IMG/VR virus record: IMGVR_UViG_3300020430_000991
Span: 1 to 22,087 of that record
Strand: one strand, 5' to 3'
From: a virus
Length of the DNA stretch: 22,087 nt
The notes below the pieces were generated by a model. That model did no database searches, had not been told where the DNA came from, and was given only the letters and a program-made list of their open reading frames with translations. The translations under genes and the position numbers were made by a program. Positions 5,984-22,087 of this stretch are shown one piece after another. Every line of letters begins with the position of its first letter. Position 1 is the first letter of the stretch.

Positions 5984-5988
5984 AAGAT

Positions 5989-6369: not shown

Positions 6370-6373
6370 AACA

Positions 6374-6544: not shown

Positions 6545-6545
6545 A

Positions 6546-8172: not shown

Positions 8173-8186
8173 TGCGGGAGGACTTG

Positions 8187-9542: not shown

Positions 9543-9919
9543 AACTTAAACCAGATACACTTGCATTGGCAAAACAAGAAGGTAGAGCACCTTGGACTGA
9601 CGTTGTGCATGAATTTAAAGATTGCATTTGGTATAATGACGGATATCCTGTAACAGAAGGACACAGTTTAATTGTGCCGCGAGAAGCATCACAACAAAAT
9701 TTATTAAGATGCTTTGATTTAGCATTAAAAATTGCAAATGATAATGTGCAACGTGGAATTATTACAGGTTATAATATTGGATTAAATATGGGAGAGTCTG
9801 CAGGACAAACTTGTATGTACCCACACGTGCATTTGATTCCAAGAAAAGATGGTGACTGCGAAGACCCAGTAGGCGGTGTAAGAAACGTTATCCCTGGAAA
9901 AGGCAATTACAAGAAATGA
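9533..9919 (+). CDS. HIT-family nucleotide hydrolase/transferase-like protein
   Basis: A 128-residue HIT (histidine triad) protein. The N-terminal half shows GYPVTEGHSLIVPRE, a typical HIT strand-helix junction. The active-site segment is GQTCMYPHVHLIPRKDGD (91-108). HIT proteins normally have H-x-H-x-H here; the middle (nucleophile) and last His are H98 and H100, but the first position is Tyr (Y96). A helix with ALKIANDNVQ precedes it. The ATG at 9533 lies inside the PRT gene and was chosen over a longer TTG form at 9509 that has no ribosome site. HIT enzymes cleave nucleoside phosphoramidates or dinucleoside polyphosphates. Coupling with the PRT gene suggests nucleotide metabolism. Confidence 0.8.
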   Translation: MAIELKPDTLALAKQEGRAPWTDVVHEFKDCIWYNDGYPVTEGHSLIVPREASQQNLLRCFDLALKIANDNVQRGIITGYNIGLNMGESAGQTCMYPHVHLIPRKDGDCEDPVGGVRNVIPGKGNYKK

Positions 9920-9993
9920 AAATAGGAATTGGTGCTTTAATAACTGCAATAATGGCATTTGTTGCCTGGTTAATGAGAAAATTTAAAAAATGA
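9916..9993 (+). CDS. 25-residue single-span membrane microprotein
   Basis: A 25-codon frame linking two genes. Its ATG overlaps the HIT stop (ATGA) and its stop overlaps the next ATG (ATGA). It encodes MKIGIGALITAI followed by more hydrophobic residues and a basic end (RKFKK), i.e. one predicted membrane helix with a positive cytosolic tail. There is no clear Shine-Dalgarno, so it would depend on coupled translation. The double ATGA overlap and the clean transmembrane profile make it a credible gene, though it could be chance. Confidence 0.5.
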   Translation: MKIGIGALITAIMAFVAWLMRKFKK

Positions 9994-10808
9994 GTAGGAC
10001 TTTGTTTATAGGAGATAGTCATACAGTTGGCTATCAGACAGTAGCCGGTAAAGTAGGCCCTGGCAGTTATTCGTTTTGGAATTCAAACAACTATTGTGAA
10101 ATATATCAAACACTTACAAACAAACCAGTTGTGATATATGCACAACCAGGTTCAACAAATACTTTGTATACCACTTGGTTAAAAAATATGTTTGAAAAGT
10201 TTGATGATATTACAGAAGTGTACATATGTTTGGCTCCTTTGAATAGAATGGTCATCAGTTTCGATCCGAAACTAGAAAATGAAGCAGTAGGAGTTGATCA
10301 CTTTACTGTTGAACATCAAGAAAGCACACAGTCTGTAAGAAAATTTAGTGACCAAGCGATTGCAGGAGATACTGTTCAAATATTAACAAAGCCAACTGGC
10401 AATGATTATCAAAACAGTCTAGGGTTAGAATTTAATCCTGAAAAAGGTTTAATCAAACCTGACTTAAGAAAAGATCCCTGGATGAGCATTAAACTTTACA
10501 ATGAGTGTAACACAACAATAGAGAAAAAAGAATTTTTACTTAACTTATATGCATGGGATAACATTTGTGCAGATAACAATGCAAAACTGTTTGTGTTTAA
10601 TTTTAGAAGCAGGGGAGTATGGCCTAGTAGAACAGATTATTTTGGTAAAATGAAAGTGCTGAAAAGAGCAGAAATGAGTGTAGAAGATTATCTTCAAAGC
10701 CTAAATATACAAGCAAAAGATTACTTTTTAGAAGACAATGAACATTTTAATTTTGATTATCATACGGCAGTTGCGGAGAAATACATACCATGGCTAAAAA
10801 ATTCATAG
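9990..10808 (+). CDS. SGNH/GDSL-type hydrolase (first of two in tandem)
   Basis: A 272-residue protein with the block I motif FIGDSHT at the N-terminus (nucleophile S10) and a C-terminal D-x-x-H (D249, H252, in EDNEHFNFDYH) followed by an amphipathic helix, the usual SGNH catalytic ends. A central segment VYICLAPLNR (about 77-86) may contain the block III region. There is no signal peptide or membrane helix, so it is probably cytosolic or virion-associated. SGNH enzymes remove acyl groups from sugars, lipids or peptides. It overlaps the next SGNH gene by 19 bases; the two share only the end motifs, so they are diverged paralogues or independent acquisitions. Confidence 0.75.
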   Translation: MSRTLFIGDSHTVGYQTVAGKVGPGSYSFWNSNNYCEIYQTLTNKPVVIYAQPGSTNTLYTTWLKNMFEKFDDITEVYICLAPLNRMVISFDPKLENEAVGVDHFTVEHQESTQSVRKFSDQAIAGDTVQILTKPTGNDYQNSLGLEFNPEKGLIKPDLRKDPWMSIKLYNECNTTIEKKEFLLNLYAWDNICADNNAKLFVFNFRSRGVWPSRTDYFGKMKVLKRAEMSVEDYLQSLNIQAKDYFLEDNEHFNFDYHTAVAEKYIPWLKNS

Positions 10809-11401
10809 CATTGTTAGGTGATAGTTTCGCGGCTGAATATAATGCTGGCTCTCCTGGCTGGGTAGATATATTGGCTGAGGAACATTCAGTTAATAATGTA
10901 GCAGAAGCAGGAGTTGGTGAATATAAAATTCTTAGACAATTACGCAACATAGAAAGCACCAATCCTAATTGGAAGGATTTATATGAATGTGTTATAGTTG
11001 CACATACCAGCCCATTTAGAGTTCACACACCAAAACATCCTTTGCATAAAAAAGGATTACACAAAAACTGTGATTTAATTTACAGTGATTTAGAAAACAG
11101 GTTTGATTGGTTTAATGAAAGTTTATCCACTGCCAAAAATTGGTTTGTACATCATTATGAGGATGAATATCAAATAGGAATCTACAAATTGGTAAGAGAA
11201 GAAATTAAAAGAATAATTGGTGACATACCATATCTAGCAATAGATCATTTTGGTTTGAGTGCCAATATTGCAACCGAAACACACAAACTTGACTTTAGCA
11301 ATTTTTGGTTACTGAATAGAGGCAATGTAAATCACTATACGGTAGAAGGAAACCAAATTGTAGCAAAAGCAGTCATTGACAAAATACAACAAATTTGTTA
11401 A
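10790..11401 (+). CDS. SGNH/GDSL-type hydrolase-like protein (second of two in tandem)
   Basis: A 203-residue protein beginning with ALLGDSFAAEY (nucleophile S12) and ending with NVNHYTVEGNQIVA, the block V region in which H182 would be catalytic. The Asp usually found three residues before that His is Asn (N179), so the triad may be incomplete or use another acid. A conserved GVGEYKILRQL region (about 41-51) may form block II. No signal peptide is seen. It begins inside the first SGNH gene, preceded by GGAGA. The pair may act as a complex or on successive acyl groups. The promoter for the folE operon lies in its last 26 bases. Confidence 0.7.
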   Translation: MAKKFIALLGDSFAAEYNAGSPGWVDILAEEHSVNNVAEAGVGEYKILRQLRNIESTNPNWKDLYECVIVAHTSPFRVHTPKHPLHKKGLHKNCDLIYSDLENRFDWFNESLSTAKNWFVHHYEDEYQIGIYKLVREEIKRIIGDIPYLAIDHFGLSANIATETHKLDFSNFWLLNRGNVNHYTVEGNQIVAKAVIDKIQQIC

Positions 11402-11404
11402 TAT
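11376..11404 (+). promoter_or_regulatory. Promoter for the folE-queE operon
   Basis: TTGACA (11376-11381) is followed after 17 bases by TAATAT (11399-11404), with an upstream TG (11396-11397) giving an extended -10 (TGTTAATAT). It sits in the 3' end of the SGNH gene. A strong AGGAGG (11412-11417) then serves the gene at 11425. The -10 is only a 4/6 match; TATAAC at 11402-11407 is an alternative, but its spacing is 20. Confidence 0.6.
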
Positions 11405-11424
11405 AACAATTAGGAGGAAAAACA

Positions 11425-11640
11425 ATGGCAAGTAGACAAATGATATATGACGCTCTGAAACAACACGCAGAAGGTCAGATTGCAAAGCATAAGACTAATG
11501 TAGAAATCTACATGGAAAAAGCAGTCGGCGTAGGCGAACATACTGATATCCTTGAAAGTATTGGCAAAGAGATCAATCATATAGGCAAGTATGTAGAGCA
11601 GATTGAAGTTTTAGAAAAAATTATTAAAAAGGCGGAGTAA
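11425..11640 (+). CDS. Small helical protein, conserved-type phage hypothetical (71 aa)
   Basis: A 71-residue protein starting MASRQMIYDALKQHAEGQ, mainly helical, with a central VGVGEHTDILESIG turn and a coiled-coil-like second helix rich in Ile, Glu and Lys. AGGAGG at 11412-11417 is seven bases before the ATG. Its stop overlaps the folE ATG (TAATG), so it is first in the folE operon. I recall near-identical small proteins in T4-like cyanophages but cannot check. Two helices joined by a Gly turn suggest a helical hairpin, perhaps dimeric. No function is known to me. Confidence 0.75.
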   Translation: MASRQMIYDALKQHAEGQIAKHKTNVEIYMEKAVGVGEHTDILESIGKEINHIGKYVEQIEVLEKIIKKAE

Positions 11641-12314
11641 TGAAAATATCCGAAAAGATAAAGCAAAGGCTGAAAGAGGCTGGGATAAGATATCATAGCA
11701 ATGACAATATTGCTGATTACATAAAAGAAGGCGAACTAAAAGAACTACAAAATGAAGTTGCGGAATCATTTGCAGGGGTGCTAGACTCTCTTGTGATTGA
11801 TACAGACAACGATCACAATACACATGACACAGCAAGACGTGTTGCTAAGATGTATGTGAATGAAGTGTTTAGTGGAAGATTTGTTCAACCACCGAAAGTT
11901 ACTGCTTTCCCGAATATGGGATATAAGAGTTTATATACAAGTGGTCCAATATCAATTAGATCAACTTGTGCCCACCATTTTCAGAACATTGTTGGTAAAT
12001 GTTGGGTAGGTATCGTGCCTAACGGAGAAGTAATTGGATTATCTAAGTTTAATAGAATAGTGCATCATATCGCTGAACGTCCTCAGATACAAGAAGAAAT
12101 GACAACACAAATTGCTGAAGCACTTAAAAAATATGCAAAGACTGAAAACATTGCTGTTCTTGTAAAAGCAGAACATCATTGCATGACACACAGAGGCGTA
12201 AAAGAACATCAGTCAGATATGACGACAGCAATCATGCTTGGTGCATTTGATACTCATGCGCCATTGAAAAAAGAGTTTTATGATATTTGTTTGAGTATGA
12301 AAGGACATGGTTAA
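11640..12314 (+). CDS. folE: GTP cyclohydrolase I (FolE)
   Basis: A 224-residue enzyme, the same length as bacterial FolE. It opens GTP to dihydroneopterin triphosphate, the first step of folate and of 7-deazaguanine synthesis. The core is well preserved: SIRSTCAHHF with zinc ligand C110 and H112/H113, VIGLSKFNRIV (131-141), a QIQEEMTTQIAEAL helix (149-162), and HHCMTHRGV with C181 as the other zinc Cys. The usual CEHH is CAHH here (A111), a small change at a position normally Glu. An N-terminal helical extension precedes the core. Translation is coupled to the small gene before it. With QueE and DpdA in the same phage, its product most likely feeds deazaguanine rather than folate. Confidence 0.92.
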   Translation: MKISEKIKQRLKEAGIRYHSNDNIADYIKEGELKELQNEVAESFAGVLDSLVIDTDNDHNTHDTARRVAKMYVNEVFSGRFVQPPKVTAFPNMGYKSLYTSGPISIRSTCAHHFQNIVGKCWVGIVPNGEVIGLSKFNRIVHHIAERPQIQEEMTTQIAEALKKYAKTENIAVLVKAEHHCMTHRGVKEHQSDMTTAIMLGAFDTHAPLKKEFYDICLSMKGHG

Positions 12315-12315
12315 G

Positions 12316-12423
12316 ATGAGGAAAAAGTTTGAAAAATACTTTGGCGAAGGCACAGCATATGACTTAGACTATGGCAAACTTTTAATTATAGGTTTGTTGA
12401 TCTATATTGCCTTTGTTAAGTAA
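12316..12423 (+). CDS. 35-residue membrane microprotein between folE and queE
   Basis: A 35-codon frame starting two bases after the folE stop and ending one base before the queE ATG. It encodes a polar, basic N-terminus (MRKKFEKYFGEG), then one hydrophobic helix (LLIIGLLIYIAFV), predicting a single membrane span near the C-terminus. GGACATGG in the end of folE is a weak ribosome site. It fills the space exactly, which supports a real gene. Without it the gap would be an unusual 110 bases in this compact region. Confidence 0.55.
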   Translation: MRKKFEKYFGEGTAYDLDYGKLLIIGLLIYIAFVK

Positions 12424-12424
12424 G

Positions 12425-13327
12425 ATGCAAGTTGAAGAAAAAAAATATTATTATTCCGAGATATTTCACAGTATACAGGGTGAAGGAGAATACACAGGCG
12501 TTCCAACAGCATGGATAAGATTCTTTCTATGTAATTTGCAGTGTAATGGATTTGGACAAATAGATCCAACGGATCCTAGCACATATGAATTGCCCTTTGA
12601 AAACTTTGATGTGTCCAGTGTAAAGAAAGTAGAAGACTTGCCTGTATGGGATAAAGGTTGTGATTCTAGTTACACGTGGGCCAAGAAGTTTAAAGGATTA
12701 ATGGGACACGAAACTCCTTCTGTGTTAGCAGACAAAATAGTAGATGCTATAAAGACTGACTCTAATCCAGATGGATTATTTTTACATCCTGGTTCGAAAC
12801 AGTATCAACATCTATGTTTTACAGGTGGCGAACCTTTAATGGCAACTGGACAATTGGCTAGTATGGGAATATACAATGCACTCAAAAAAAAAAATAATTT
12901 GCCTAAGTCTATGACATTTGAAACAAATGGCACACAAAAATTAAGAGAACCATTCAAACAATGGATCAAAGATATTCCAGAAGAGATATTCTTTAGTGTA
13001 AGTCCAAAATTATTTACTGTGTCAGGTGAAAAACCTGAAAAAGCAATTAAGCCTGAAAATGTTGCTGAATACACAGAATGTTCTGATAGAGGACAACTAA
13101 AATTTGTTGTTGGTGCCAAAGATAAAGAATGGGATGAAATGGAAATGACAGTTGAAAAATTTAGGAATGCTGGTGTGCAATGGCCCGTTTGGATAATGCC
13201 CACAGGTGCCAGAGAAGAAGAACAAGTGGCAACTGCTGGTCAGGTGGCTGAAAGAGCATTCAAAAAAGGATATAATGTGGCGGCAAGAGTTCATGTTTAT
13301 CTATTTGGTAATGCAATCGGAACATAA
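12425..13327 (+). CDS. queE: 7-carboxy-7-deazaguanine synthase (QueE), radical SAM, with insertion in the cysteine motif
   Basis: A 300-residue radical SAM enzyme that converts 6-carboxytetrahydropterin to 7-carboxy-7-deazaguanine. The QueE N-terminus YYSEIFHSIQGEGEYTGVP is clear. CNLQC (C36, C40) corresponds to the first two cluster cysteines. The third appears only at C79 in GCDSSYTW, where ordinary QueE has CxxCDTxYTW directly. The motif is thus CX3CX38C. Later landmarks are FTGGEPL (132-138), FETNGT (165-170), a SVSPK strand (about 190) and QLKFVV. A TTG start at 12407 was rejected in favour of the ATG at 12425, because it lies inside the microprotein frame and lacks a ribosome site. The inserted segment makes the protein about 80 residues longer than minimal QueE. 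Confidence 0.85.
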   Translation: MQVEEKKYYYSEIFHSIQGEGEYTGVPTAWIRFFLCNLQCNGFGQIDPTDPSTYELPFENFDVSSVKKVEDLPVWDKGCDSSYTWAKKFKGLMGHETPSVLADKIVDAIKTDSNPDGLFLHPGSKQYQHLCFTGGEPLMATGQLASMGIYNALKKKNNLPKSMTFETNGTQKLREPFKQWIKDIPEEIFFSVSPKLFTVSGEKPEKAIKPENVAEYTECSDRGQLKFVVGAKDKEWDEMEMTVEKFRNAGVQWPVWIMPTGAREEEQVATAGQVAERAFKKGYNVAARVHVYLFGNAIGT

Positions 13328-13330
13328 CGG

Positions 13331-13359
13331 TAGACTAATTGAAAAAAATAAGGTATAAT
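13331..13359 (+). promoter_or_regulatory. Probable sigma70-type promoter after queE
   Basis: TATAAT at 13354-13359 is perfect; 17 bases upstream lies TAGACT (13331-13336), a 4/6 match to the -35. The 52-base gap between queE and the next gene also holds a strong CGGAGG ribosome site (13367-13372), giving a leader of about 14 bases. Confidence 0.55.
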
Positions 13360-13379
13360 AATAGTTCGGAGGTAAAGAA

Positions 13380-13760
13380 ATGGATATAATCAAAAAAGTC
13401 AAAGATGCTTTGGTCAAAAAGAAAGATGTAAAATCTGAAACAAAAGATCCTAAAATGGAAGCACTTATGGCGGAAAAAGCAAAAGCAACAAAAGAAAACA
13501 AGCCTTGGGTCGCAGTGTTGAACACGCACATTAATAAAGACAATATTAAAAATGGTTTCTTTGAACTTGATTGGAACAATGAATTTATTGAACAATTAGT
13601 TGATGCAGGTTATAAAGGTGAAAGCAATGAACAGATAGTTGATGCTTGGTTTAAAACTATTGCTAGAAATATACTTGCAGAGCAAGGTCAAGATCCAAAC
13701 AGAGGTGCAGGATATATTAACACAAAAAATTTAAGTGACGATAAGTCAGAAATTAGTTAA
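13380..13760 (+). CDS. Conserved-type phage hypothetical protein (126 aa)
   Basis: A 126-residue protein in two parts. A highly charged Lys/Glu-rich N-terminal helix (about 1-38, starting MDIIKKVKDALVKKK) is followed by a compact domain with KPWVAVLNTHINKDNIKNGF (about 41-60) and ELDWNNEFIEQLVDAGYKG (about 61-79), then a helix containing Trp and Arg. The second part is the kind of segment I recall from many T4-like cyanophage hypothetical proteins, but I cannot verify it. CGGAGG precedes the ATG by seven bases and a promoter lies directly upstream, so this gene starts a new operon. No enzymatic motif is seen. Confidence 0.75.
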   Translation: MDIIKKVKDALVKKKDVKSETKDPKMEALMAEKAKATKENKPWVAVLNTHINKDNIKNGFFELDWNNEFIEQLVDAGYKGESNEQIVDAWFKTIARNILAEQGQDPNRGAGYINTKNLSDDKSEIS

Positions 13761-13769
13761 GGAGAAACA

Positions 13770-14021
13770 ATGTCAAAAGATGATATAGAAAAACAATCAG
13801 AGCATGGTAGAGATTCTCATGATCATGATTTAACTTATGAAAACGAACACAGCACTGATTTGAGTCCTATGGTTAGAATATCTATTAGAGAATATGATGC
13901 ATTGAGAGACGAGGCTAAAGACGCTGGCAAATATATCACTGATCCTAGCCTGATTAGTATAATAGATAAAATCGAGGAATTAACAAGAGCATTAAGAAAG
14001 CATATTGTTAGAAAATATTAA
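13770..14021 (+). CDS. Small His/Asp-rich protein with C-terminal helix (83 aa)
   Basis: An 83-residue protein. The first 30 residues are very polar and rich in His, Asp and Glu (for example SHDHDLTYENEH) and look disordered or metal-binding. The rest forms helices, including SIREYDALRDEAKDA and IIDKIEELTRALRKHI, with a basic end. AAGGAG lies about seven bases before the ATG. It follows the preceding gene by nine bases and is probably in the same operon. I do not recognise a family; the helical half could be a coiled-coil dimer. Confidence 0.65.
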   Translation: MSKDDIEKQSEHGRDSHDHDLTYENEHSTDLSPMVRISIREYDALRDEAKDAGKYITDPSLISIIDKIEELTRALRKHIVRKY

Positions 14022-14022
14022 T

Positions 14023-14682
14023 ATGTTACAAATCCACAAAAGTATGCATCCATTGACTGAGTTCGCTCCTGTATGGAATTTTCCATTATGGTTTGATCAA
14101 TTTGGAAACAAAGAAGAACTTGGTATAATGAGGCAGTGGATAATAGATAATGAAAAAAGTATTATTGATTCCAACAAACACAAATCAAAAGATGATGGCG
14201 GTACTGGTTTGGGTCAAAATAGTCTTACTGCACAATACAATAGTTTTAATTTATTTAAATTAACGCAAGACGTGAATGTGTTTAAAAATATGTTCAATTG
14301 GTTACAAGAGTCATATACAAATTTTATGAATGAATATAAAACACAACCAAGGAAGTGTATAATGTTTTGTTGGGCAAACATAGTTAGAAAAGGACAACCT
14401 ATTACTATACACAATCACGGTGCAAAACATTTTTCGTATTTGAGTGGCAATTTGCATTTTGAGGACTATGCAACACAGACTGTATATCATAATCCTGTAA
14501 ATCCAAGAATGGTATATGAAACAAAGAATGTTGCTGGAGGACTTACATTATTTCCAAGTTACATATTTCATCAAGCAGATGAACACAAAGTAGACAATGT
14601 GAGAGTCAGCATGGCTTTTGACTTATTTGATACAAATTTTTATGAAGGGGATCGCACAAACGCAGTGGAGTTTAACGCATGA
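14023..14682 (+). CDS. Putative 2OG-Fe(II) oxygenase (2OG-FeII_Oxy_5-like)
   Basis: A 219-residue protein with the jelly-roll oxygenase pattern seen in many marine T4-like phages. The motif ITIHNHGAKHFSYLSGNLHFED (about 127-148) gives the H-x-H pair H130/H132, which may bind iron, and the SG turn of the family. GGLTLFPSYIFHQ (172-184) holds the distal H183, and VRVSMAFDL (193-201) provides R194 for 2-oxoglutarate. W118 lies in the FCWANIV strand before the motif. The ATG at 14023 follows the previous stop closely and has only a weak ribosome site; a TTG at 14005 was rejected. Substrates of this phage family are mostly unknown; DNA, protein or small molecules are possible. Confidence 0.75.
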   Translation: MLQIHKSMHPLTEFAPVWNFPLWFDQFGNKEELGIMRQWIIDNEKSIIDSNKHKSKDDGGTGLGQNSLTAQYNSFNLFKLTQDVNVFKNMFNWLQESYTNFMNEYKTQPRKCIMFCWANIVRKGQPITIHNHGAKHFSYLSGNLHFEDYATQTVYHNPVNPRMVYETKNVAGGLTLFPSYIFHQADEHKVDNVRVSMAFDLFDTNFYEGDRTNAVEFNA

Positions 14683-15665
14683 CATATATTCTAGTAGATA
14701 CTGCTAATACATTTTTTAGAGCAAGGCACGTCATTCGTGGAGATCTAAATGAAAAAATTGGAATGGCTTTACATATAACTTTTAATTCAATACGTAAGGT
14801 ATGGAGAGATTTTGACGGTAGTCATGTTGTATTTTGTTTAGAAGGTAGAAGTTGGCGTAAGGATCATTATGCACCTTACAAAAGAAATAGAGCAGATGCA
14901 AGAGCAGTAAGAACAGAAACTGAGGTGGAAGAGGACGAAGTATTCTGGGAAACATTTGATAGTTTTAGAGACTTTATTGATCAAAAAACTAATTGCACGG
15001 TATTGAGACATGAACAATTAGAAGCAGATGATTTAATTGCTGGTTGGATAAAAGCACATCCTAATGATAATCATGTGATAGTTTCTACTGATGGAGACTT
15101 TGCACAATTAATTGCACCTAATGTAAAACAATTTAATGGCATTCAGGACGTTACAACTACACATGAAGGTTACTTTGATGACAAAGGAAAACGTGTTATA
15201 GATAAGAAAACAAAAGAAGAAAAGCCTGCTCCTAATCCGCAGTGGTTATTATTTGAAAAATGCATGAGAGGTGACAGTTCAGACAATGTGTTTTCTGCAT
15301 ATCCTGGAGTAAGAACAAAAGGTACAAAAAAGAAAGTTGGTTTACAAGAAGCCTTTGCAGATAGAGAAACAAAGGGATATAATTGGAATAATTTGATGTT
15401 GCAAAGATGGGTAGATCATGAAGGCAATGAACACAGAGTATTAGATGATTACAATAGAAATGTACAACTATGTGATTTGTCTGCACAACCTGATAATATA
15501 AAACAAATTATTAATGACACAGTTTCTAGTGCGTCTAAAAAAGAAATAGAACAAGTAGGTTTAAAATTAATTAAATTTTGTGCAAAATGGGATATGCAAA
15601 GAATTGCTGATTCACCTGAATCATATGCAGAGCCTTTGAATGCACGATACAAAAAAGGAGAATAA
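14679..15665 (+). CDS. rnh: T4 RNase H-type 5'-3' nuclease (FEN/PIN family)
   Basis: A 328-residue flap/5' nuclease of the T4 RNase H family, which removes RNA primers from lagging-strand fragments. The acidic metal-binding residues are placed as in FEN enzymes: D7 (YILVDTANTF), E115 and D117/D118 (EADDLIAGW), D138 and D140 (STDGDFAQLI), D199 and D202 (CMRGDSSDNV). After these, SAYPGVRTKGTKKK forms the helix-three-turn region that binds duplex DNA. The length is close to T4 RNase H (305). It overlaps the oxygenase gene by ATGA. With the polymerase and clamp elsewhere in the window it completes part of a T4-type lagging-strand system. Confidence 0.88.
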   Translation: MTYILVDTANTFFRARHVIRGDLNEKIGMALHITFNSIRKVWRDFDGSHVVFCLEGRSWRKDHYAPYKRNRADARAVRTETEVEEDEVFWETFDSFRDFIDQKTNCTVLRHEQLEADDLIAGWIKAHPNDNHVIVSTDGDFAQLIAPNVKQFNGIQDVTTTHEGYFDDKGKRVIDKKTKEEKPAPNPQWLLFEKCMRGDSSDNVFSAYPGVRTKGTKKKVGLQEAFADRETKGYNWNNLMLQRWVDHEGNEHRVLDDYNRNVQLCDLSAQPDNIKQIINDTVSSASKKEIEQVGLKLIKFCAKWDMQRIADSPESYAEPLNARYKKGE

Positions 15666-15666
15666 A

Positions 15667-16167
15667 ATGGTTACAAAGTATTTTGCTAAACCAATATTAG
15701 ATGGTCGTTTTTGGATTTTAGAAGAAGACGGCAGAAAACTTGGAACTATATGTAAACAAGAAGACAGGAGATATATGTTTAGTTGTGACACAGGCACAAT
15801 GATATTCGACAATCAAAGACAACTACAACAAAAATTTAATGGCAGTTGGATGTGGGGCTCTACATTGGAGCAAACTGTTGATACTACAAAAATTGTTAAA
15901 GAAGTCAATGTTTATGATTATCCAAGTAAGTTTAAAGCATTTAATCAAATTTTTGACGTACAAAAGAAACTACCTTTGTTTACTAAAAGTAAAAAATCTA
16001 AAAGTTTGTATTGTGCAGGTTATTACATTATTAAATTTGAAAAAGGCTGGGTTAGAAGTTTTTGTCCTAAAATGCTTACATTGGATAGATACCCATTCAA
16101 AGGTCCTTTTAGAACACAGTTAGAGATGAAACAGGAGTTAGCCAATGCAAACAAAAATGCCCATTAA
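15667..16167 (+). CDS. Conserved-type phage hypothetical protein (166 aa)
   Basis: A basic 166-residue protein. An N-terminal beta-rich part (KYFAKPILDGRFWILEEDG, then KLGTICKQ) leads into a region with NGSWMWGSTL and a Lys-rich linker. The C-terminal part has AGYYIIKFEKGWVRSFCPK followed by TLDRYPFKGPF. It looks like one compact beta-rich domain. AAGGAG lies six bases before the ATG at 15667, directly after the RNase H stop; a longer start at 15640 inside RNase H has no site. I recall proteins of this type in T4-like cyanophages, always unannotated. Location after RNase H hints at replication but is weak evidence. Confidence 0.7.
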   Translation: MVTKYFAKPILDGRFWILEEDGRKLGTICKQEDRRYMFSCDTGTMIFDNQRQLQQKFNGSWMWGSTLEQTVDTTKIVKEVNVYDYPSKFKAFNQIFDVQKKLPLFTKSKKSKSLYCAGYYIIKFEKGWVRSFCPKMLTLDRYPFKGPFRTQLEMKQELANANKNAH

Positions 16168-16378
16168 TACAGCATCCATAGAAAGACTGCTCCAGCAGAT
16201 TAAAAATGCTGATCAGTCACAGCAAAAACAGGTCACCTTGGATATTGCAAGTGCTAAAGAGGTCTCCTATGCACTTGGCACATTGCTGGCAAGACTGGCT
16301 GGGGACTATGAGTCAATAATCGCAAAAGGTGATTCAGACCAACAAATAGAAGTGAAAGTGGACGGCGGAAGTCTGTAA
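16145..16378 (+). CDS. Small conserved-type phage protein (77 aa)
   Basis: A 77-residue protein whose central part, NTASIERLLQQIKNA followed by TLDIASAKEVSYALGTLLARL, predicts two helices joined by a strand. AGGAG at 16133-16137 precedes the ATG at 16145 by seven bases; the ATG at 16157 is a less well supported alternative. It overlaps the previous gene by 23 bases. The C-terminus, EVKVDGGSL, is polar. I recall similar small proteins in cyanophages but no function. Confidence 0.7.
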   Translation: MQTKMPINTASIERLLQQIKNADQSQQKQVTLDIASAKEVSYALGTLLARLAGDYESIIAKGDSDQQIEVKVDGGSL

Positions 16379-16412
16379 TCCATTAACTACTAATAATATA
16401 CATCAAAAATTG

Positions 16413-16419
16413 CTAAATA
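16413..16419 (+). promoter_or_regulatory. T4-late-type promoter motif (CTAAATA)
   Basis: CTAAATA lies in the 50-base AT-rich gap between two genes, ten bases before the ATG at 16429. It resembles the T4 late -10 core TATAAATA and the shorter form reported for T4-like marine phages. There is no Shine-Dalgarno between it and the ATG. No good -35 is present, as expected for a late promoter. The rest of the gap holds only AT-rich sequence. Confidence 0.4.
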
Positions 16420-16428
16420 TAGTATATT

Positions 16429-16719
16429 ATGAGTAGACCTAAACCCACGATACTATTAGAAAACGTCAATAAAAGCGACTACAAATCTGAGCAAGTTTTG
16501 GCGGCGGAAGCCATCTGGGCAGTTTTCTATAAAAAGAAACCCTTCAATTTGAAGTCATCTAATTTATTGAACAATTATCCAGGACCAAAATATAAAAAAG
16601 TCTCATTTTCAAATCCTGGACACGCATTCAATCTAGCGAAAAAATTGAACACTATGTTCAACACTGAAGAATTCACGGTGGTCAAATTGACCCAGGGTGA
16701 AACTGTCAGTGAAAAATGA
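16429..16719 (+). CDS. Conserved-type phage hypothetical protein (96 aa)
   Basis: A basic 96-residue protein. It begins MSRPKPTILLENVN, then has a region with QVLAAEAIWAVFYKKKPFNL and a conserved-looking YPGPKYKKVSFSNPGHAFNLA segment, followed by a Lys/Thr-rich end. The pattern is one alpha/beta domain. From memory it matches a protein widespread in T4-like cyanophages, so it is probably a real core-type gene, but its function is unknown to me. Only weak ribosome-site similarity precedes the ATG, so initiation may be leaderless from the late motif just upstream. Confidence 0.7.
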   Translation: MSRPKPTILLENVNKSDYKSEQVLAAEAIWAVFYKKKPFNLKSSNLLNNYPGPKYKKVSFSNPGHAFNLAKKLNTMFNTEEFTVVKLTQGETVSEK

Positions 16720-17099
16720 TATCCAAAGAAGCCTACACTAAAATATTCTTAAAACAAGCAAATATTTCTATTGGCGAAAATACAATGAAAGAGTATATGC
16801 CTGTTTGGTGGAAAAATACAAGACGTTCAGGCGGACTAAGATTAACGGAAGCAGGTTTTGAATTTATTACAGAAAAATTAGAAATAAAAGTTTACGAAGT
16901 TCCATTTCCTATGGAATTCAAACTTACCACACAGGTTATAATATTTTTAGACAAGTATATTAATTGTCCATACTTTCTTGCAGAAGATGGAATTATTGTT
17001 GCAAATGAAAGAAAAGCAATGGAATTAATGTTATTTTCTGGAGATATTAGAAAATACGGTCTTAATAAAGCCATTTCTAGGCTAGAATCAGCAGAATAG
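16716..17099 (+). CDS. Hypothetical protein with predicted DNA- or protein-binding helices (127 aa)
   Basis: A 127-residue protein. An N-terminal helical part contains KIFLKQANISIGENTMKEY. The middle has WWKNTRRSGGLRLTEAGFEF, which resembles the start of a small winged or helix-turn-helix domain (LTEAGF), then a strand-rich part with FKLTTQVIIFLDKY. The last segment is helical with many charged residues. It overlaps the previous gene by ATGA. A winged-helix reading is only a guess, since no confident recognition helix can be marked. Confidence 0.65.
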   Translation: MISKEAYTKIFLKQANISIGENTMKEYMPVWWKNTRRSGGLRLTEAGFEFITEKLEIKVYEVPFPMEFKLTTQVIIFLDKYINCPYFLAEDGIIVANERKAMELMLFSGDIRKYGLNKAISRLESAE

Positions 17100-17121
17100 T
17101 TATCCACAGGGTAAATTACCC
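17100..17121 (+). promoter_or_regulatory. Perfect DnaA-box sequence and adjacent 13-bp palindrome
   Basis: TTATCCACA at 17100-17108 is identical to the strong E. coli DnaA box. It abuts GGGTAAATTACCC (17109-17121), a perfect palindrome around one central base that could be an operator. Both lie at the start of the longest intergenic region of the window (17100-17222). Confidence 0.5.
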
Positions 17122-17130
17122 GCATAAACC

Positions 17131-17167
17131 TTGACTTTTTTAATGCATATTTCAGGTTGACTTTTTT
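17131..17167 (+). repeat. Direct repeat TTGACTTTTTT, two copies 26 bp apart
   Basis: TTGACTTTTTT occurs at 17131-17141 and 17157-17167. The second copy is also the -35 of a promoter; the first has no matching -10 at the right distance. The spacing (26) is not an exact number of helical turns. Confidence 0.7.
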
Positions 17168-17185
17168 GGTACTTGAATATATTAT
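17157..17185 (+). promoter_or_regulatory. Promoter for the MoxR-type ATPase gene
   Basis: TTGACT (17157-17162, 5/6) and TATTAT (17180-17185, 5/6) are separated by 17 bases in an AT-rich setting. The start would be near 17192, leaving a leader of about 30 bases with AGGAG (17209-17213) nine bases before the ATG at 17223. Confidence 0.65.
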
Positions 17186-17222
17186 TAAACTATACAACAA
17201 GTTAATATAGGAGTACAAACAA

Positions 17223-18323
17223 ATGCCAAAAGCACAAGAAACATTAGGTACTAGACAAGTTAGCCCAAACAAGGCAAAGGCTAGTATCCTACACGCACTT
17301 AAGATTAAGAGACCAATATTTTTATGGGGAGGCCCTGGTATTGGTAAATCAGAAATTATACACCAAATTGGAGATAACATGGATGCTCATGTTATTGATA
17401 TAAGGTTAAGTTTATGGGAACCAACAGATATTAAAGGTATTCCATATTTCAATTCTAAAGAGAACACTATGGATTGGGCTCAACCTTCAGAACTTCCAGA
17501 TCAGAAACTTGCGAAGAAACATAAATGTATTATTTTATTTTTAGATGAAATGAATTCCGCGGCACCTAGTGTACAGGCGGCGGCATATCAATTAATTCTA
17601 AATAGAAAAGTTGGTACATACAGCCTACCTGACAATGTTGTTATAATTGCGGCAGGTAACAGAGAGGCAGATAAAGGTGTTACTTATAGAATGCCTGCTC
17701 CGTTGGCAAATAGATTCATTCACTTGGAGATGAAAGTTGAATTTGATGACTGGTTTGAATGGGCAGTCGACAAAAGCATCCATAAAGATGTTTTAGGATA
17801 TTTGACTTTCAGTAAAAAGGACCTATATGACTTTGATCCAAAGTCGCCAAGTCGTTCTTTTGCAACTCCGAGATCCTGGTCATTTGTTAGTCAATTACTA
17901 GCAGATGAATTGGACGAAAGCACAACTACTGACATGGTTAGTGGTGCAGTGGGCGAGGGACTTGCAGTTAAGTTCATGGCTCATAGAAAAGTGGCAAGTA
18001 AGTTGCCTAACCCATCTGAGATTTTAGATGGTAAAATTGATACTTTGAAATCTAAGGAAATTAGTGCTATGTACTCACTTACGGTTTCATTGTGTTATGA
18101 ACTCAAAGATGCTTGTGATAAAAAAGATAAGAAATTTGACGACAAGGTCAATAAGTTTCTTAGATTTATGATGGACAACTTTGATACCGAACTTGTTGTA
18201 ATGGGTATTAAACTTGCTCTAACGCAGTATCAATTACCTATTGATCCTGATAAGGTCAAGTGTTTTGATGAGTTCCACGAAAAGTATGGCAAATATGTCA
18301 CTGCCGCTCAATCAATCAAATAA
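17223..18323 (+). CDS. MoxR-type AAA+ ATPase
   Basis: A 366-residue AAA+ ATPase. Walker A is GGPGIGKS (36-43), Walker B is IILFLDEMN (103-111), sensor 1 is AAGNREAD (N146), and an arginine-finger region is APLANRF (159-165, R164). ATPRSW and a helical C-terminal part follow, as in MoxR/RavA proteins. MoxR ATPases work with VWA-domain partners as chaperone-like machines that assemble or activate other complexes; the next gene encodes such a partner. The gene has its own promoter and a hairpin at its 3' end, so it is a separate transcription unit. Length and order match MoxR proteins. The client is unknown. Confidence 0.88.
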   Translation: MPKAQETLGTRQVSPNKAKASILHALKIKRPIFLWGGPGIGKSEIIHQIGDNMDAHVIDIRLSLWEPTDIKGIPYFNSKENTMDWAQPSELPDQKLAKKHKCIILFLDEMNSAAPSVQAAAYQLILNRKVGTYSLPDNVVIIAAGNREADKGVTYRMPAPLANRFIHLEMKVEFDDWFEWAVDKSIHKDVLGYLTFSKKDLYDFDPKSPSRSFATPRSWSFVSQLLADELDESTTTDMVSGAVGEGLAVKFMAHRKVASKLPNPSEILDGKIDTLKSKEISAMYSLTVSLCYELKDACDKKDKKFDDKVNKFLRFMMDNFDTELVVMGIKLALTQYQLPIDPDKVKCFDEFHEKYGKYVTAAQSIK

Positions 18324-18360
18324 AAGTGCTGACAATAGGGCACTTTTATCGGTGCCCTAT
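18321..18360 (+). terminator. Two overlapping, mutually exclusive hairpins after the ATPase gene
   Basis: TAAAAGTGC (18321-18329) pairs with GCACTTTTA (18340-18348), and ATAGGGCAC (18335-18343) pairs with GTGCCCTAT (18352-18360); both are perfect 9-bp stems sharing 18340-18343. The first contains the stop codon and ends in a T-rich arm, so it may be a weak terminator; the second would prevent it forming. Confidence 0.55.
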
Positions 18361-18372
18361 ACCAAAAACAGG

Positions 18373-18401
18373 TTGACTATAATACCAAAAAATTGTATAA
18401 T
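18373..18401 (+). promoter_or_regulatory. Sigma70-type promoter for the VWA-metallopeptidase gene
   Basis: TTGACT (18373-18378) and TATAAT (18396-18401) are separated by 17 bases, 5/6 and 6/6 matches. A second TATAAT follows at 18401-18406. The start would fall on or just after the ATG at 18407, so initiation may be leaderless or use the ATG at 18410 or 18419. Confidence 0.75.
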
Positions 18402-18406
18402 ATAAT

Positions 18407-19657
18407 ATGATGGACACAATGGAAAAAACAAAGATTACACCAGAAGAATACAAAAGACTAAAAGCAGAAGTAATAGACAAGATAGTGGTTGCAAGAGTTG
18501 GTTTACTTTTAAGACATCCATTTTTTGGCAACATGGCAACAAGATTGCAGATACAAGAATGTGATGAATGGTGTCCTACTGCGGCAACTGATGGAAGAAA
18601 CTTATTTTACAATGTTGACTTCTTTAGCAAACTATCCAATAAAGAAATAGAATTCGTAATTGCACATGAAATACTTCATTGTGTATTTGACCACATGACA
18701 AGACGTGAAGATAGGGATCCACAACTTCATAATATTGCTTGTGATTATATTGTAAACAATACATTAGTTAGAGACAACATCGGCGATAAGCCTAAAGACA
18801 TACAAATTTTCCAAGACTTCAAATATGATGGCTGGACTTCAGAAGCAGTGTATGATGATATCTACAAAAAAGGTAAAGAGAAAATGAAGCAACTTGGAAA
18901 ACTTTTAGATGAACACATTGACTGGGAAAAAGATAACACTCCTGGCGGTGGTGACAAGAAAGATAAAGATGGCAAAGGCAAACAACAACCTACATATTCT
19001 AAAGAAGAACTAGAAAAAATTAAAGATGAAATTAAAGATTCAATGTTACAGGCGGCACAAACTGCTGGAGCAGGAAATTTGCCTAAAGAAGTCGAAAGAG
19101 TTATTAAACAATTTACAGAGCCTAAAATGAATTGGAGAGAAGTGCTACAAACACAAATACAAAGTGTAATAAAAAATGATTACACATTTACTAGACCAAG
19201 TAGAAAAGCATGGCACACAGGAGCAATATTACCAGGCACAAAAAATGATGAAACAATAGATGTGTGTGTTGCAATAGACACTTCAGGATCTATTAGAGAT
19301 GAACAAGTAAAAGTATTTTTAGGAGAAATACAAAACATTATGTCGCAGTATGCAGATTACAATATTAAGATTTGGTGCTTTGATACTGAAGTACACAATG
19401 AACAAGATTATACTCCACATGATGACAGTTTAGAAAATTACAAGATTGCTGGAGGTGGCGGTACAGATTTTATGGCTAATTGGGAATACATGAAAGAACA
19501 TGGCATAGAGCCTAAAAAGTTTATTATGTTTACTGATGGTTATACTTGGGACTCTTGGGGAGATCCTGAATACTGTGACACAGTTTTTGTTGTGCATGAA
19601 CATCACGATAAAAATTTAGAAGCACCTTTTGGAGTCACAGTAAGATATGATGAATAA
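18407..19657 (+). CDS. Metallopeptidase-VWA protein, partner of the MoxR ATPase (DUF2201-like)
   Basis: A 416-residue two-domain protein. The N-terminal domain has FVIAHEILHCVFDHM (84-97) with the HExxH zinc motif (H87, E88, H91), and D113 in HNIACDYIVNN as likely third ligand. A Lys/Asp/Gly-rich linker (about 175-200) follows. The C-terminal VWA domain has VCVAIDTSGSIRDE with the MIDAS D291-x-S-x-S295 and GGGGTDF plus FTDGYTW further on. This is the DUF2201 architecture that pairs with MoxR ATPases in bacteria. The true start may be any of three in-frame ATGs (18407, 18410, 18419); none has a good ribosome site. Function is probably to process or remodel a client protein with the ATPase. Confidence 0.85.
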   Translation: MMDTMEKTKITPEEYKRLKAEVIDKIVVARVGLLLRHPFFGNMATRLQIQECDEWCPTAATDGRNLFYNVDFFSKLSNKEIEFVIAHEILHCVFDHMTRREDRDPQLHNIACDYIVNNTLVRDNIGDKPKDIQIFQDFKYDGWTSEAVYDDIYKKGKEKMKQLGKLLDEHIDWEKDNTPGGGDKKDKDGKGKQQPTYSKEELEKIKDEIKDSMLQAAQTAGAGNLPKEVERVIKQFTEPKMNWREVLQTQIQSVIKNDYTFTRPSRKAWHTGAILPGTKNDETIDVCVAIDTSGSIRDEQVKVFLGEIQNIMSQYADYNIKIWCFDTEVHNEQDYTPHDDSLENYKIAGGGGTDFMANWEYMKEHGIEPKKFIMFTDGYTWDSWGDPEYCDTVFVVHEHHDKNLEAPFGVTVRYDE

Positions 19658-19941
19658 TGCTACACAAAACAAACACACCTAATCCACTTAATTTTTTTAA
19701 CGTAAGACGTTTTAAAAAGAAACCAAAAAATCTACGATGCGAAAGATACAACTTTGAATCAGATGAACTGGGAGAAAGAGTTGTAAACTGGATTGACGAA
19801 AATTTAAAAAGTAGATATTATTTTGGTAGACATCTTGTTTTAGATAACGATTCCAAATTCCAATATGTTTTTTTGGTAGGATTTGAATCTAGCAAAGAAA
19901 TGTCCATATTCAATTTGAGCTGTCCATTTATTAATCAATAG
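19657..19941 (+). CDS. Hypothetical basic protein (94 aa)
   Basis: A 94-residue protein whose ATG overlaps the previous stop (TAATG). The N-terminus is basic (NVRRFKKKPKNLRCERYNF), followed by GERVVNWIDENLKSRYYF and a strand-rich end with YVFLVGFE. The length and charge suggest a small nucleic-acid- or protein-binding domain. No family is recognised. It may be translated with the VWA protein, but it could also belong to a separate module. Confidence 0.6.
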   Translation: MLHKTNTPNPLNFFNVRRFKKKPKNLRCERYNFESDELGERVVNWIDENLKSRYYFGRHLVLDNDSKFQYVFLVGFESSKEMSIFNLSCPFINQ

Positions 19942-19951
19942 TAAATATTTC

Positions 19952-19960
19952 TGTTATAAC
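19952..19960 (+). promoter_or_regulatory. Possible extended -10 promoter upstream of the 19993 gene
   Basis: TGTTATAAC (19952-19960) has the TGn plus TATAAC form of an extended -10; a recognisable -35 is absent. GTAAATA (19941-19947) nearby is a weak late-type alternative. Either could start transcription for the genes from 19993 onward. Confidence 0.3.
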
Positions 19961-19992
19961 AAAGTCTAAATTAAAGAAGGAGACATATCGAT

Positions 19993-20292
19993 ATGACAGA
20001 TAAAACAAAAAGTGCTCCACAACCAGCACAGGCAACTGCACCAGCAGGTACTCAAGCACCCGCGGCAGATTTGACTGTACAGGATTTGGGAGTAATTAGA
20101 TCAATTATTGATGTGGCGTCAACTAGAGGTGCGTTCAAGGCAAATGAAATGCAGGCTGTTGGAGCAACTTACAATAAACTAGAAGCATTTTTAAAAATTG
20201 TTGAAGCACAACAAAAAGATGCGGCTGGTAAAAAAACTGAAACTGGATCTGTGAACACAATCAAAGATGCAGGTACATCGGAGAAAAAATAA
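19993..20292 (+). CDS. Ala/Pro-rich N-terminus plus small helical domain, conserved-type phage protein (99 aa)
   Basis: A 99-residue protein. Residues 1-26 are low complexity (Ala, Pro, Gln, Thr), then the folded part runs DLTVQDLGVIRSIIDVAS (about 26-43), followed by GAFKANEMQAVGATYNKLEAFL (about 46-67), two helices. The end is polar and probably disordered. AAGAAGGAG lies about ten bases before the ATG. From memory the folded part is common to many T4-like marine phages. It overlaps the next gene (TAATG). It may be a structural or assembly protein, because it is in the block before a tail-fibre gene. Confidence 0.7.
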   Translation: MTDKTKSAPQPAQATAPAGTQAPAADLTVQDLGVIRSIIDVASTRGAFKANEMQAVGATYNKLEAFLKIVEAQQKDAAGKKTETGSVNTIKDAGTSEKK

Positions 20293-20858
20293 TGGCCGAC
20301 ACAAAACACGTAGGTAGAATCAAAGGCAGTAACGAAAAAGTTGCGGTGGTCTACCGAACTATTCCAGGAGACAGTAAATCTGCTCTTGTAATAAGAACTG
20401 CAAAACTAGAAGAAGGAGATCATGACGGTTTAATGAGAATAATTGAATCTAATGAAGCACAAACTTCTAACGAATTGTATCAAGCATTAGAAAGAAGTCC
20501 GTTACCATCGGGCGAAAATGCTTTGCCTAAATTTTTCAAAAACGGAAATTTAGAAAAGATTTCAACTTCAGAAGTTGAGATGGTACAAAATCCTCAGTCT
20601 ATTGTTCAATTAAGTGATTTGAACAGAATGATTGCTGATCAAAAAGGCGTATCAGTAGACGATTTGGCTGTCAAAGCCGACGCCGCTGAAGCGATATCTG
20701 TGAACACTGCTGAAGGTGTAAAGCCTCAAGACAGCAAGGTATTAACAGATGAACAGATTGCATCACGTATGAGAAGCGATGCAGATAGACTGTACAAGGA
20801 AGCCGCTAAATTAAGGAAGGAAGCGGAAGACCTTTCCCCAACTAAGAAAAAGTCTTAA
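20292..20858 (+). CDS. Conserved-type phage hypothetical protein (188 aa)
   Basis: A 188-residue protein. The N-terminal half is beta-rich (VAVVYRTIPGDSKSALVIRT, residues about 18-37) and continues through GLMRIIESNEAQTSNELYQAL. The C-terminal third is helical and charged (ASRMRSDADRLYKEAAKLRKEA), with a Lys-rich end. The pattern suggests a small globular domain plus a coiled coil. It is the middle of a three-gene group and overlaps the gene before it. Similar proteins are in T4-like marine phages from memory. A virion role is plausible but unproven. Confidence 0.7.
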   Translation: MADTKHVGRIKGSNEKVAVVYRTIPGDSKSALVIRTAKLEEGDHDGLMRIIESNEAQTSNELYQALERSPLPSGENALPKFFKNGNLEKISTSEVEMVQNPQSIVQLSDLNRMIADQKGVSVDDLAVKADAAEAISVNTAEGVKPQDSKVLTDEQIASRMRSDADRLYKEAAKLRKEAEDLSPTKKKS

Positions 20859-20861
20859 ATT

Positions 20862-21197
20862 GTGGAAACTGTCGCTGTGGTACGTTTTAGTAAAGGCAAG
20901 TTGCCTAAACAGGTAGTCAATGAATGGCCCGAAATTTTCGGAGATGTAGAAGTTTCGGCTATACCTGTTCAATATCTCAAAAGCATTAACGTAACATTTA
21001 AAGATGGCAAGAAATGGGAGGTGCGTATGAAACCCAACAAGAAGAACGTTTCTGCCAAAGAATTAGAGGCTACCATCAATGAAATGTTCATTCACTACAA
21101 AGACGCTATAAAAACCGTGGATTTTAGGCTGGATGTAAGCAAGGTTAAAGCAGATATTAGTACTAGAACCAAGAAGTTTATTAAGAAGAACAAATAA
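20862..21197 (+). CDS. Conserved-type phage hypothetical protein (111 aa), GTG start
   Basis: A 111-residue protein starting at GTG 20862, four bases after the previous stop; no ATG lies nearby in frame. METVAVVRFSKGKLPKQVV leads into a strand-helix domain with SINVTFKDGKKWEVRM and ATINEMFIHYKDAI, and a Lys-rich C-terminal end. Size and order suggest a partner of the two genes before it. No function is known to me. The late-type motifs for the following gene overlap its stop codon. Confidence 0.7.
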   Translation: METVAVVRFSKGKLPKQVVNEWPEIFGDVEVSAIPVQYLKSINVTFKDGKKWEVRMKPNKKNVSAKELEATINEMFIHYKDAIKTVDFRLDVSKVKADISTRTKKFIKKNK

Positions 21198-21210
21198 ATA
21201 CAGATAAATA
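21193..21210 (+). promoter_or_regulatory. T4-late-type promoter motifs before the tail-fibre-like gene
   Basis: AATAAATA (21193-21200) and GATAAATA (21203-21210), 10 bases apart, resemble the T4 late -10 (TATAAATA). The second is well placed to give a start near 21217, just before AGGAG (21219-21223) and the ATG at 21233. A late structural gene follows, as expected. Confidence 0.55.
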
Positions 21211-21232
21211 AACATACTAGGAGCATATCTAA

Positions 21233-22087
21233 ATGGCATTACAGTTAAGAAGAGGAACTAACGCAGAACGAGGAGCAATAACACCTGCATTGGGTGAACT
21301 CGTTTACGTAACAGATTACAGCACGGCGGGAGTTGCACCTCTTTTTATAGGTGACGGAGTAACTGTTGGCGGTAATCCAGTTGGTGCTTCTGCATTAAGT
21401 TTCACAGGAATAGCAGGTAATGTAACACCTGATCAAGACAGCACTAGAGATTTAGGAACTACTGGTGATAGATGGGCAAATGCTTTTATTGATGATATCA
21501 CAGTAACCAATACAGTCACAGGTAATGTAACAGGTGATTTAAATGGTAACGTAACAGGTAATGTGACTGGTAACGTAACAGGAACAGTAACAGGTTCAAC
21601 TGTAGGTCACGTGGTTGGTTCAGTGTTCGGAGACGATTCAACACAAATAATTGATGGTGACAATAAAAATATTTCAAACATTAACAATATAAACTTCAAC
21701 ACAGGTCCTGGAACAGGTCTAAATGAAGTTTATCAAATCAATGTAGATAGTGCTAGTAACCAAGTAAGAATTGGTCACAGCCAGGATGATGAATTTGGTA
21801 GATTAACTTTTACCAGAGTTAAAGCAGTTGGCACAATACCAGTAAACGAATCTGTTGGTAGAGTGCTTTGGACAAAAACTGAAAATAACGCCGACACAAA
21901 TTTTGGTGTAATAACTTGTAGCCAAAACCAAATGGTATTATCTGTGGACGATGGCGTACATGGATTTTCAAAAGTATTAAGAGTACATAAATCAGGTAAA
22001 GTAGACGTAAATGGTGATTTAAATGTAGAACCAGCGGCTGAGTTCAGTGTAAACGGTATTGCTTTACTAACACCACAAACTGGTGCT
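21233..22087 (+). CDS. Tail-fibre-like virion protein, N-terminal part (3' end outside window)
   Basis: An open frame from the ATG at 21233 (AGGAG nine bases upstream) to the window edge, 285 codons so far. It starts MALQLRRGTNAERGAITP and continues GELVYVTDY, a beginning typical of phage fibre and appendage proteins that attach to the baseplate or neck. A LFIGDGVTVGG segment follows, then a tandem repeat of the four-residue unit NVTG (about residues 95-120), then beta-rich sequence with VDVNGDLNVEPAAEF near the edge, like a fibre shaft. No trimerisation or receptor-binding end is seen because it is truncated. It is behind a late-type promoter. Confidence 0.75.
   Translation, partial: MALQLRRGTNAERGAITPALGELVYVTDYSTAGVAPLFIGDGVTVGGNPVGASALSFTGIAGNVTPDQDSTRDLGTTGDRWANAFIDDITVTNTVTGNVTGDLNGNVTGNVTGNVTGTVTGSTVGHVVGSVFGDDSTQIIDGDNKNISNINNINFNTGPGTGLNEVYQINVDSASNQVRIGHSQDDEFGRLTFTRVKAVGTIPVNESVGRVLWTKTENNADTNFGVITCSQNQMVLSVDDGVHGFSKVLRVHKSGKVDVNGDLNVEPAAEFSVNGIALLTPQTGA
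21499..21600 (+). repeat. Degenerate 12-bp tandem repeat encoding NVTG units
   Basis: Units of the form GGTAAYGTAACA repeat about six to eight times, some with point changes, encoding repeated NVTG/TVTG tetrapeptides. Such short repeats in fibre genes allow slippage and length change. Confidence 0.75.

Follow-up and report, generated by a model that had tools for sequence, protein, structure and literature searches.

Bacteria pair MoxR-type AAA+ ATPases with VWA proteins, as in RavA-ViaA and NorQ-NorD, whose partners are not known to carry the DUF2201_N domain and whose clients are host enzymes. MoxR-vWA pairs with a third component, such as VMAP or iSTAND, are described as ternary conflict systems (PMC7159879). 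Viruses encode MoxR-VWA pairs as well. In ATV, the VWA protein p892 strongly interacts with the MoxR protein p618 and raises its ATPase activity (PMC4124505), and the system is described as being without a peptidase domain (PMC7824862). Jumbo phages of group 2.2, such as Atu_ph07 (ASV44729.1/ASV44728.2), combine MoxR with a metallopeptidase-VWA protein, for which a function in virion assembly has been proposed (PMC7824862). Coliphage N4, a podovirus, carries gp24 and gp25, which have no known function and belong to the 14 genes that form the core of 25 N4-like phages (PMC4193335). The subject of this study is an adjacent pair of genes, for a MoxR ATPase and a DUF2201 peptidase-VWA protein, on the marine phage record IMGVR_UViG_3300020430_000991 (22,087 bases; the whole stretch is called the window hereafter). 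The pair as such is already known from N4 and the jumbo phages, and that of the window is a further member of the described kind: it is homologous to, and linked like, the known pairs, with the same two proteins, domain order, and adjacency as in Atu_ph07, and the same gene order and strand as in N4, where the gap is 167 nucleotides.

The reading favored here, at a probability of roughly 0.42, is that the pair acts as a MoxR chaperone with a VWA co-chaperone on a non-virion, non-structural client common to phages and plasmids. It is nearly level with a function in virion assembly, and both are weighed below, after the evidence on the proteins, their linkage, their occurrence on plasmids, and their promoters (coordinates in Table 1).

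A preliminary description of the window, made from its sequence, had placed an AAA+ MoxR ATPase beside a protein with an HExxH peptidase motif and a VWA metal ion-dependent adhesion site (MIDAS); open reading frames, Pfam, and PHROG bear this out. The MoxR protein matched AAA_3 (1.5e-8), AAA (2.7e-8), and AAA_5 (1.2e-4) in Pfam and PHROG 1297, labeled ATPase, at 2.7e-100. Its residues were compared across three sets of phage loci: 80 viral loci of about 69% identity or more (the close set, which are kin and not independent samples), 18 diverse phages (the window and 17 records), and 19 further viral loci (the far rows, two of which appear to be 121Q and RaK2 again and several of which are near-identical). 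K42 of Walker A was kept in every row covering it (18/18 diverse, 77/77 close, and 18/18 far), and together with the Walker B aspartate and glutamate, N146, R164, and R217 it was unchanged in every covering phage row. N146 we take to be the sensor-1 asparagine, and the motif names used for both proteins are likewise our presumed assignments. The AlphaFold model (predicted local distance difference test [pLDDT] 83.5) had NorQ (8.9e-9) and CbbQ as top Foldseek matches. Thus, an AAA+ core with Walker A and B, the sensor-1 asparagine, and the arginines is combined with a fold that is nearest to solved MoxR members and common to the bacterial pairs. That the NorQ structure was solved together with its VWA partner NorD was counted in favor of a chaperone pair.

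The second protein exceeded the Pfam cut-offs for both expected domains in the expected order, DUF2201_N (putative metallopeptidase; residues 29-268, 2.3e-43, 149.2 bits versus a cut-off of 23.2) and the DUF2201 VWA-like domain (residues 286-412, 4.6e-21, 75.6 versus 26.4 bits), and contains the HExxH and MIDAS residues. It matched PHROG 1314 at 1.7e-119; this family is labeled HNH endonuclease, as were 23 of 60 spread rows, and no HNH family was among the five Pfam matches to an E value of 0.01 in the scan of the window pair, which included no dedicated HNH motif search. The five MIDAS residues (D, S, S, T, and D) were invariant wherever covered in the 117 phage rows (close, far, and diverse) and in 8/8 bacterial copies. 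Of the HExxH residues and further candidates for metal binding, H91 and H96 were found in 117/117 phage rows, and H87, E88, and D113 in 116/117 each. In the AlphaFold model (pLDDT 75.0), a VWA fold is seen (5a8j, 9.5e-5; Z up to 12.8, root mean square deviation 2.7 over 150 residues), and most structure matches of the whole model span residues 254-416 only; the HExxH region had a weak sequence match to MJ1213 (0.03).

The active-site residues, which the preliminary description had listed as present, are indeed intact in the window, and both proteins are probably functional as judged from these residues. Their loss in close relatives, named there as a possible refutation, was not seen, HExxH being kept in 80 of 80. 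A need for the peptidase part, however, is not supported farther afield: HExxH is broken in two of the 18 diverse phages (HQILH in Atu_ph07 and EEIIH in RM378) and in one of eight bacterial copies, a Variovorax plasmid copy without H87 and E88. The published jumbo-phage example, whose MoxR is 41% identical to that of the window, thus probably has a dead peptidase site, in contrast to the window pair. N4 gp24/gp25 have all residues checked and are distant in sequence (28% for gp25). Because HExxH is broken in some members while the ATPase and MIDAS residues are kept, the ATPase and MIDAS look like a fixed core and the peptidase like an optional part.

The phage survey proposed in the preliminary description was carried out by tblastn (E 1e-5) against 50,697 phage records. 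The MoxR protein matched 811 (243 with 80% coverage) and the VWA protein 783 (630 with 80% coverage), and in most host genera the two counts nearly agree (MoxR/VWA: Escherichia 186/187, Pseudomonas 112/112, Klebsiella 70/70, Vibrio 114/98). All loci used for linkage were found via one of the two genes or picked by name, and the following figures are linkage rates, not carriage rates. MoxR lies 5′ of VWA on the same strand in 80/80 close loci (aligned-end spacing 84-196), both genes are present in 18/18 diverse phages, at most 4.4 kb apart, and in 19/19 further loci. The two genes are on opposite strands in the vequintavirus WalterGehring. Across the 18 phages, pairwise distances among the MoxR proteins and among the VWA proteins correlate at 0.876 (0 of 2,000 permutations as high; uncorrected for the species tree). 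Both the linkage and this correlation were counted for the favored reading. Just 5′ of MoxR, LUZ7 (L092:3507-4349) and SonariX (L098:4962-5717) have a gene for a second AAA ATPase (PHROG 5534), which in SonariX is preceded by that for a Band_7 protein (L098:4048-4884).

A machine specific to phages is not supported. Among 72,556 plasmid records, 107 matched the VWA protein and 125 MoxR, 17 and 18 of which, respectively, were typed conjugative (VWA/MoxR by genus: Burkholderia 13/13, Paraburkholderia 8/8, Cupriavidus 8/8, Synechocystis 5/5, Rhodococcus 28/30). At least one such record, CP057073 (Escherichia coli, 137,565 bases), seems from its size and match range to be a vequintavirus genome. 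Both genes were present in 7/7 plasmid contexts examined and in an Aurantimonas contig, and none of the seven, in which many genes are hypothetical, had an annotated phage structural gene within 7-8 kb. In trees of both proteins (36 taxa; splits without support values), phage and bacterial or plasmid copies interleave, and the bacterial copies do not group into a single clade. The plasmid carriage, the lack of structural neighbors, and the trees all favor a client beyond the virion: because the module occurs in phages and plasmids, its client is most likely not the virion alone. The MoxR and VWA genes share 4 bases on pSYSA, pREL1, and a Streptomyces plasmid, and on pSYSA toxin-antitoxin-like genes lie 5′ of the pair. 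Four Burkholderiales copies, of the eight bacterial copies, have D-D at Walker B. A scan of bacterial contigs matched 588 stretches, with one bacterial locus among the matches listed, and DUF2201_N was present in 2 of 14 control genomes. Searches of open PMC found no paper reporting the pair on plasmids; PMC2642839, on plasmid transcriptomes, mentions MoxR and VWA, and PMC2147016, on Bacillus phage 0305phi8-36, mentions MoxR and von Willebrand.

On four Burkholderiales plasmids, a protein of 286-309 amino acids is encoded between MoxR and VWA. Its match to DUF3150 is weak and below the cut-off (0.0011, in one of three scanned). The proteins are homologous among these plasmids, and Planktothrix phage Pra-JY27 has a homologue too. 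This DUF3150-like protein matched 41 plasmid records, with counts equal to those of the pair (Burkholderia 13, Paraburkholderia 8, Cupriavidus 8, Caballeronia 4, Variovorax 4), and three records of the phage collection, all cyanobacterial phages, identical in length (65,014 bases) and in score. The gene was found in six of the collected loci (Table 1), among them the Aurantimonas contig, and had no match in the window or its relatives among these loci. MoxR, DUF2201, and the DUF3150-like protein are possibly a three-part system. Genes between MoxR and VWA in SCTP-2, phage G, phi30-3, LUZ7, and SonariX were compared with it and gave no match at E 1; a search of the open PMC library returned no paper for DUF3150 and four for DUF2201.

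The preliminary description gave each gene its own promoter. Sigma70-like matches to at least 10 of 12 positions recur upstream of MoxR in 77/77 close loci and upstream of VWA in 67/77 (27 of 32 distinct intergenic sequences), the three of 80 loci with a cut-off MoxR start being excluded. A generic scan of window positions 3000-22087 gave 69 such sites versus a mean of 77.2 in shuffled sequence, that is, no excess. The −10 hexamer upstream of VWA ends 5 nucleotides 5′ of the ATG, and the VWA transcript would therefore be leaderless or nearly so. A sequence common to both promoters, CAGGTTGACT, was discarded as a candidate signal, being at chance level in the window (two matches with at most one mismatch, a number equaled or exceeded in 27 of 100 shuffles). 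NATAAATA, a motif of the T4 late type, occurs only twice in the whole window (21193 and 21203; mean in simulated sequence 7.8 per strand), both times 5′ of a tail-fiber-like gene. It lies within 100 nucleotides 5′ of that gene in 52/52 loci where the gene was found, and within the same distance of MoxR in 0/78 and of VWA in 0/78. The sigma70-like matches of the pair, the lack of a nearby late-type motif, and the transcription of N4 gp24/gp25 with the middle genes (PMC4193335, after earlier work) were counted for the favored reading; for the window phage itself, the timing of expression is one that we infer. NATAAATA is also found at the 3′ end of gp20 in 5/5 clade records (L135-L139), where it is possibly the late promoter of the next head genes.

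Taken together, the favored reading would have the following form. The VWA protein would presumably bind a client via its MIDAS site and hand it to a MoxR hexamer, which would spend ATP on remodeling it; the zincin-like half of the VWA protein would bind the client and, in most members, probably clip it too. Coupling between ATPase and MIDAS would be the obligatory core and the peptidase an optional part of a module common to phages and large plasmids. The client would be a non-structural complex met by both elements, either host-made or part of their own nucleic-acid machinery, and would be handled from early or middle infection. It is the plasmid carriage together with the middle expression in N4 that speaks for a non-virion client, and the core status of gp24/gp25 in N4-like phages was counted on the same side.

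The published proposal, in which MoxR-VWA chaperones tail or head parts while the zincin trims structural proteins (PMC7824862), is a tentative but serious contender, and several observations that support it weigh against a non-virion client. The ATV pair, with p618 as a major virion component bound by p892 (PMC4124505), serves the virion tail. In the virion protein list of phAPEC6, which is counted as the same species as 121Q, an ATPase, gp265c, was detected with six peptides (49.52 kDa, 19% coverage; PMC7247149). By order and mass this should be the MoxR of the pair: gene 563 of 121Q, the MoxR homologue, has 49.51 kDa, and its neighbors correspond as well (121Q/phAPEC6: gene 566, 25.03/25.02; gene 560, 35.95/35.96; gene 568, thymidylate synthase, 35.51/35.51 kDa), whereas gp268c (51.12) has no equal mass among the 18 computed 121Q genes, 551 to 568. 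As the phAPEC6 list also contains thymidylate synthase, however, it is not purely structural, and gp264, by order the VWA partner, does not occur in the text of that paper. DC4 virions gave one peptide of DC4_00011, whose listed similarity is to a PBS1 transcription factor (the MoxR homologue in PBS1 is 213), but the authors of that study call for confirmation of co-packaged proteins (PMC10638138). The pair comes after head and tail genes in 121Q and RaK2, four virion proteins of roseophage RPP1 are encoded near the gp24/gp25 homologues (PMC4193335), and in the clade of the window a tail-fiber-like gene follows the pair past four small genes. Against the proposal, gp23 and gp20 lie 69-87 kb away from the pair in five longer clade records (G001-G005, linear). 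A late-type motif does lie 798-943 nucleotides 5′ of MoxR in 64/77 clade loci, preceding a gene for 96 amino acids two places upstream, and late read-through into the pair is therefore possible, which weakens the idea that the pair is expressed early only; the window is among the 13 loci without the motif and has a degenerate form there (GCTAAATA at 16412). NATAAATA was found within 100 nucleotides 5′ of gp23 in 0/5 and of gp20 in 0/5 records, which had been intended as a positive control, and its role as a late promoter in the clade is thus presumptive. The plasmid copies, moreover, may serve a different client from that of the phages. Against virion assembly stand, besides the more than 100 plasmid records matching each gene and the middle expression in N4, the printed virion protein list of LIT1, which has neither homologue (PMC3715699), and apparently that of the T4-like cyanophage S-CREM1, which carries a MoxR gene, possibly akin to that of the pair, and whose 14 virion proteins are four structural ones and 10 without known function (PMC9964418). 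The main text of the RaK2 paper does not name ORF053 or ORF054 (PMC3622015), and the text on CBB names neither MoxR nor an ATPase, which says little, as the search covered the text and not its protein tables (PMC5259590).

A special case of the non-virion client, scored apart from it, is counter-defense or host takeover, in which the pair would dismantle or cut a host complex directed against phages and plasmids that enter the cell. Its presence in both lytic phages and plasmids and the early-type promoter matches would fit, but we consider it unlikely: membership in the core of N4-like phages points to a housekeeping need, and among the PADLOC models, a library of defense rather than counter-defense, none matched the VWA protein and the matches of MoxR were weak and covered its AAA part (best 5.3e-6). 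A defense label for the pair was dropped for want of PADLOC support, and a search of NCBIfam gave no family.

Table 1. Positions of the pair, its motifs and promoter matches, neighboring genes of the window, and DUF3150-like genes of other loci.
Feature	Position	Strand	Basis or remark
Two small genes (96 and 127 amino acids), just 5′ of MoxR	16429..17099	+	Counterparts in L043, L052, L073
Sigma70-like match TTGACT-17-TATTAT, 5′ of MoxR	17157..17185	+	10/12
MoxR-type AAA+ ATPase, 366 amino acids (N4 gp24 family, PHROG 1297)	17223..18323	+	Open reading frame, Pfam, PHROG, Foldseek
Walker A region, residues 36-43, K42	17328..17351	+	Residue conservation
Walker B, D108-E109	17544..17549	+	Same in all covering phage rows
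Asparagine N146	17658..17660	+	Conservation in phage rows
Hairpin between the genes, 3′ of MoxR, no T run after it	18335..18360	+	−17.1 kcal/mol, 60-nucleotide stretch folded
Sigma70-like match TTGACT-17-TATAAT, 5′ of VWA	18373..18401	+	11/12
DUF2201 protein, 416 amino acids, N-terminal zincin-like, C-terminal VWA (N4 gp25 family, PHROG 1314)	18407..19657	+	Open reading frame, Pfam, PHROG, VWA fold
HEILH (HExxH), residues 87-91	18665..18679	+	Residue conservation; candidate metal site
H96	18692-18694	+	Near-invariant; candidate metal binding
D113	18743-18745	+	Near-invariant; candidate metal binding
MIDAS DTSGS, residues 291-295	19277..19291	+	D291, S293, S295 conserved in covering rows
MIDAS T353	19463-19465	+	Conserved
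MIDAS D377	19535-19537	+	Conserved
Tail-fiber-like repeat protein	21233..22087, runs off the window	+	Role inferred from sequence
DUF3150-like gene	L123:6058-6987		
DUF3150-like gene	L124:6067-6984		
DUF3150-like gene	L125:6089-6949		
DUF3150-like gene	L129:7076-8002		
DUF3150-like gene	L093:3951-4823		
DUF3150-like gene	L121:1-960		

Among the longer records from the window's close relatives, 5 of 10 contain T4-type gp23 and 5 of 6 contain gp20; the source of the window is therefore, by sequence, a large T4-like phage; the tail sheath family PF04984 was found in 0/10 records of the clade and was unusable as a landmark there. The first gene of the window encodes the C-terminal portion of a DNA polymerase, and the protein of 127 amino acids encoded upstream of MoxR had no match among the records of the phage collection. 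Genes recognized by eye as similar to DpdA (1979-3472), FolE (GTP cyclohydrolase; 11640-12314), and QueE (12407-13327) suggest 7-deazaguanine modification of DNA or RNA. A ClpP-like (7609-8172) and a HIT-like protein (9509-9919), also recognized by eye, are encoded 5′ of the pair, and client turnover could be affected by a ClpP encoded close to a chaperone pair. In the relative L073, a gene of the tryptophan-halogenase family (15503-16663; PHROG 2928 at 8e-87) lies 3′ of the tail-fiber-like gene.

To the known pair, this analysis adds its carriage by plasmids, the invariance of the MIDAS along with the occasional loss of HExxH, and the detection, by order and mass, of MoxR in the phAPEC6 virion. 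A broader proposal, which we regard as doubtful, is that MoxR and the DUF2201 zincin-VWA protein, joined in one branch by the DUF3150-like protein, form a general remodeling module that lytic phages and large conjugative plasmids, as mobile elements, trade with each other. In both, it would disarm or re-tool the same host (or replication) complex, and its association with jumbo-phage virions would be secondary. The presence of the pair on large plasmids means that it may have tasks beyond building virus particles, and the published idea of virion assembly can be tested against such a wider role.

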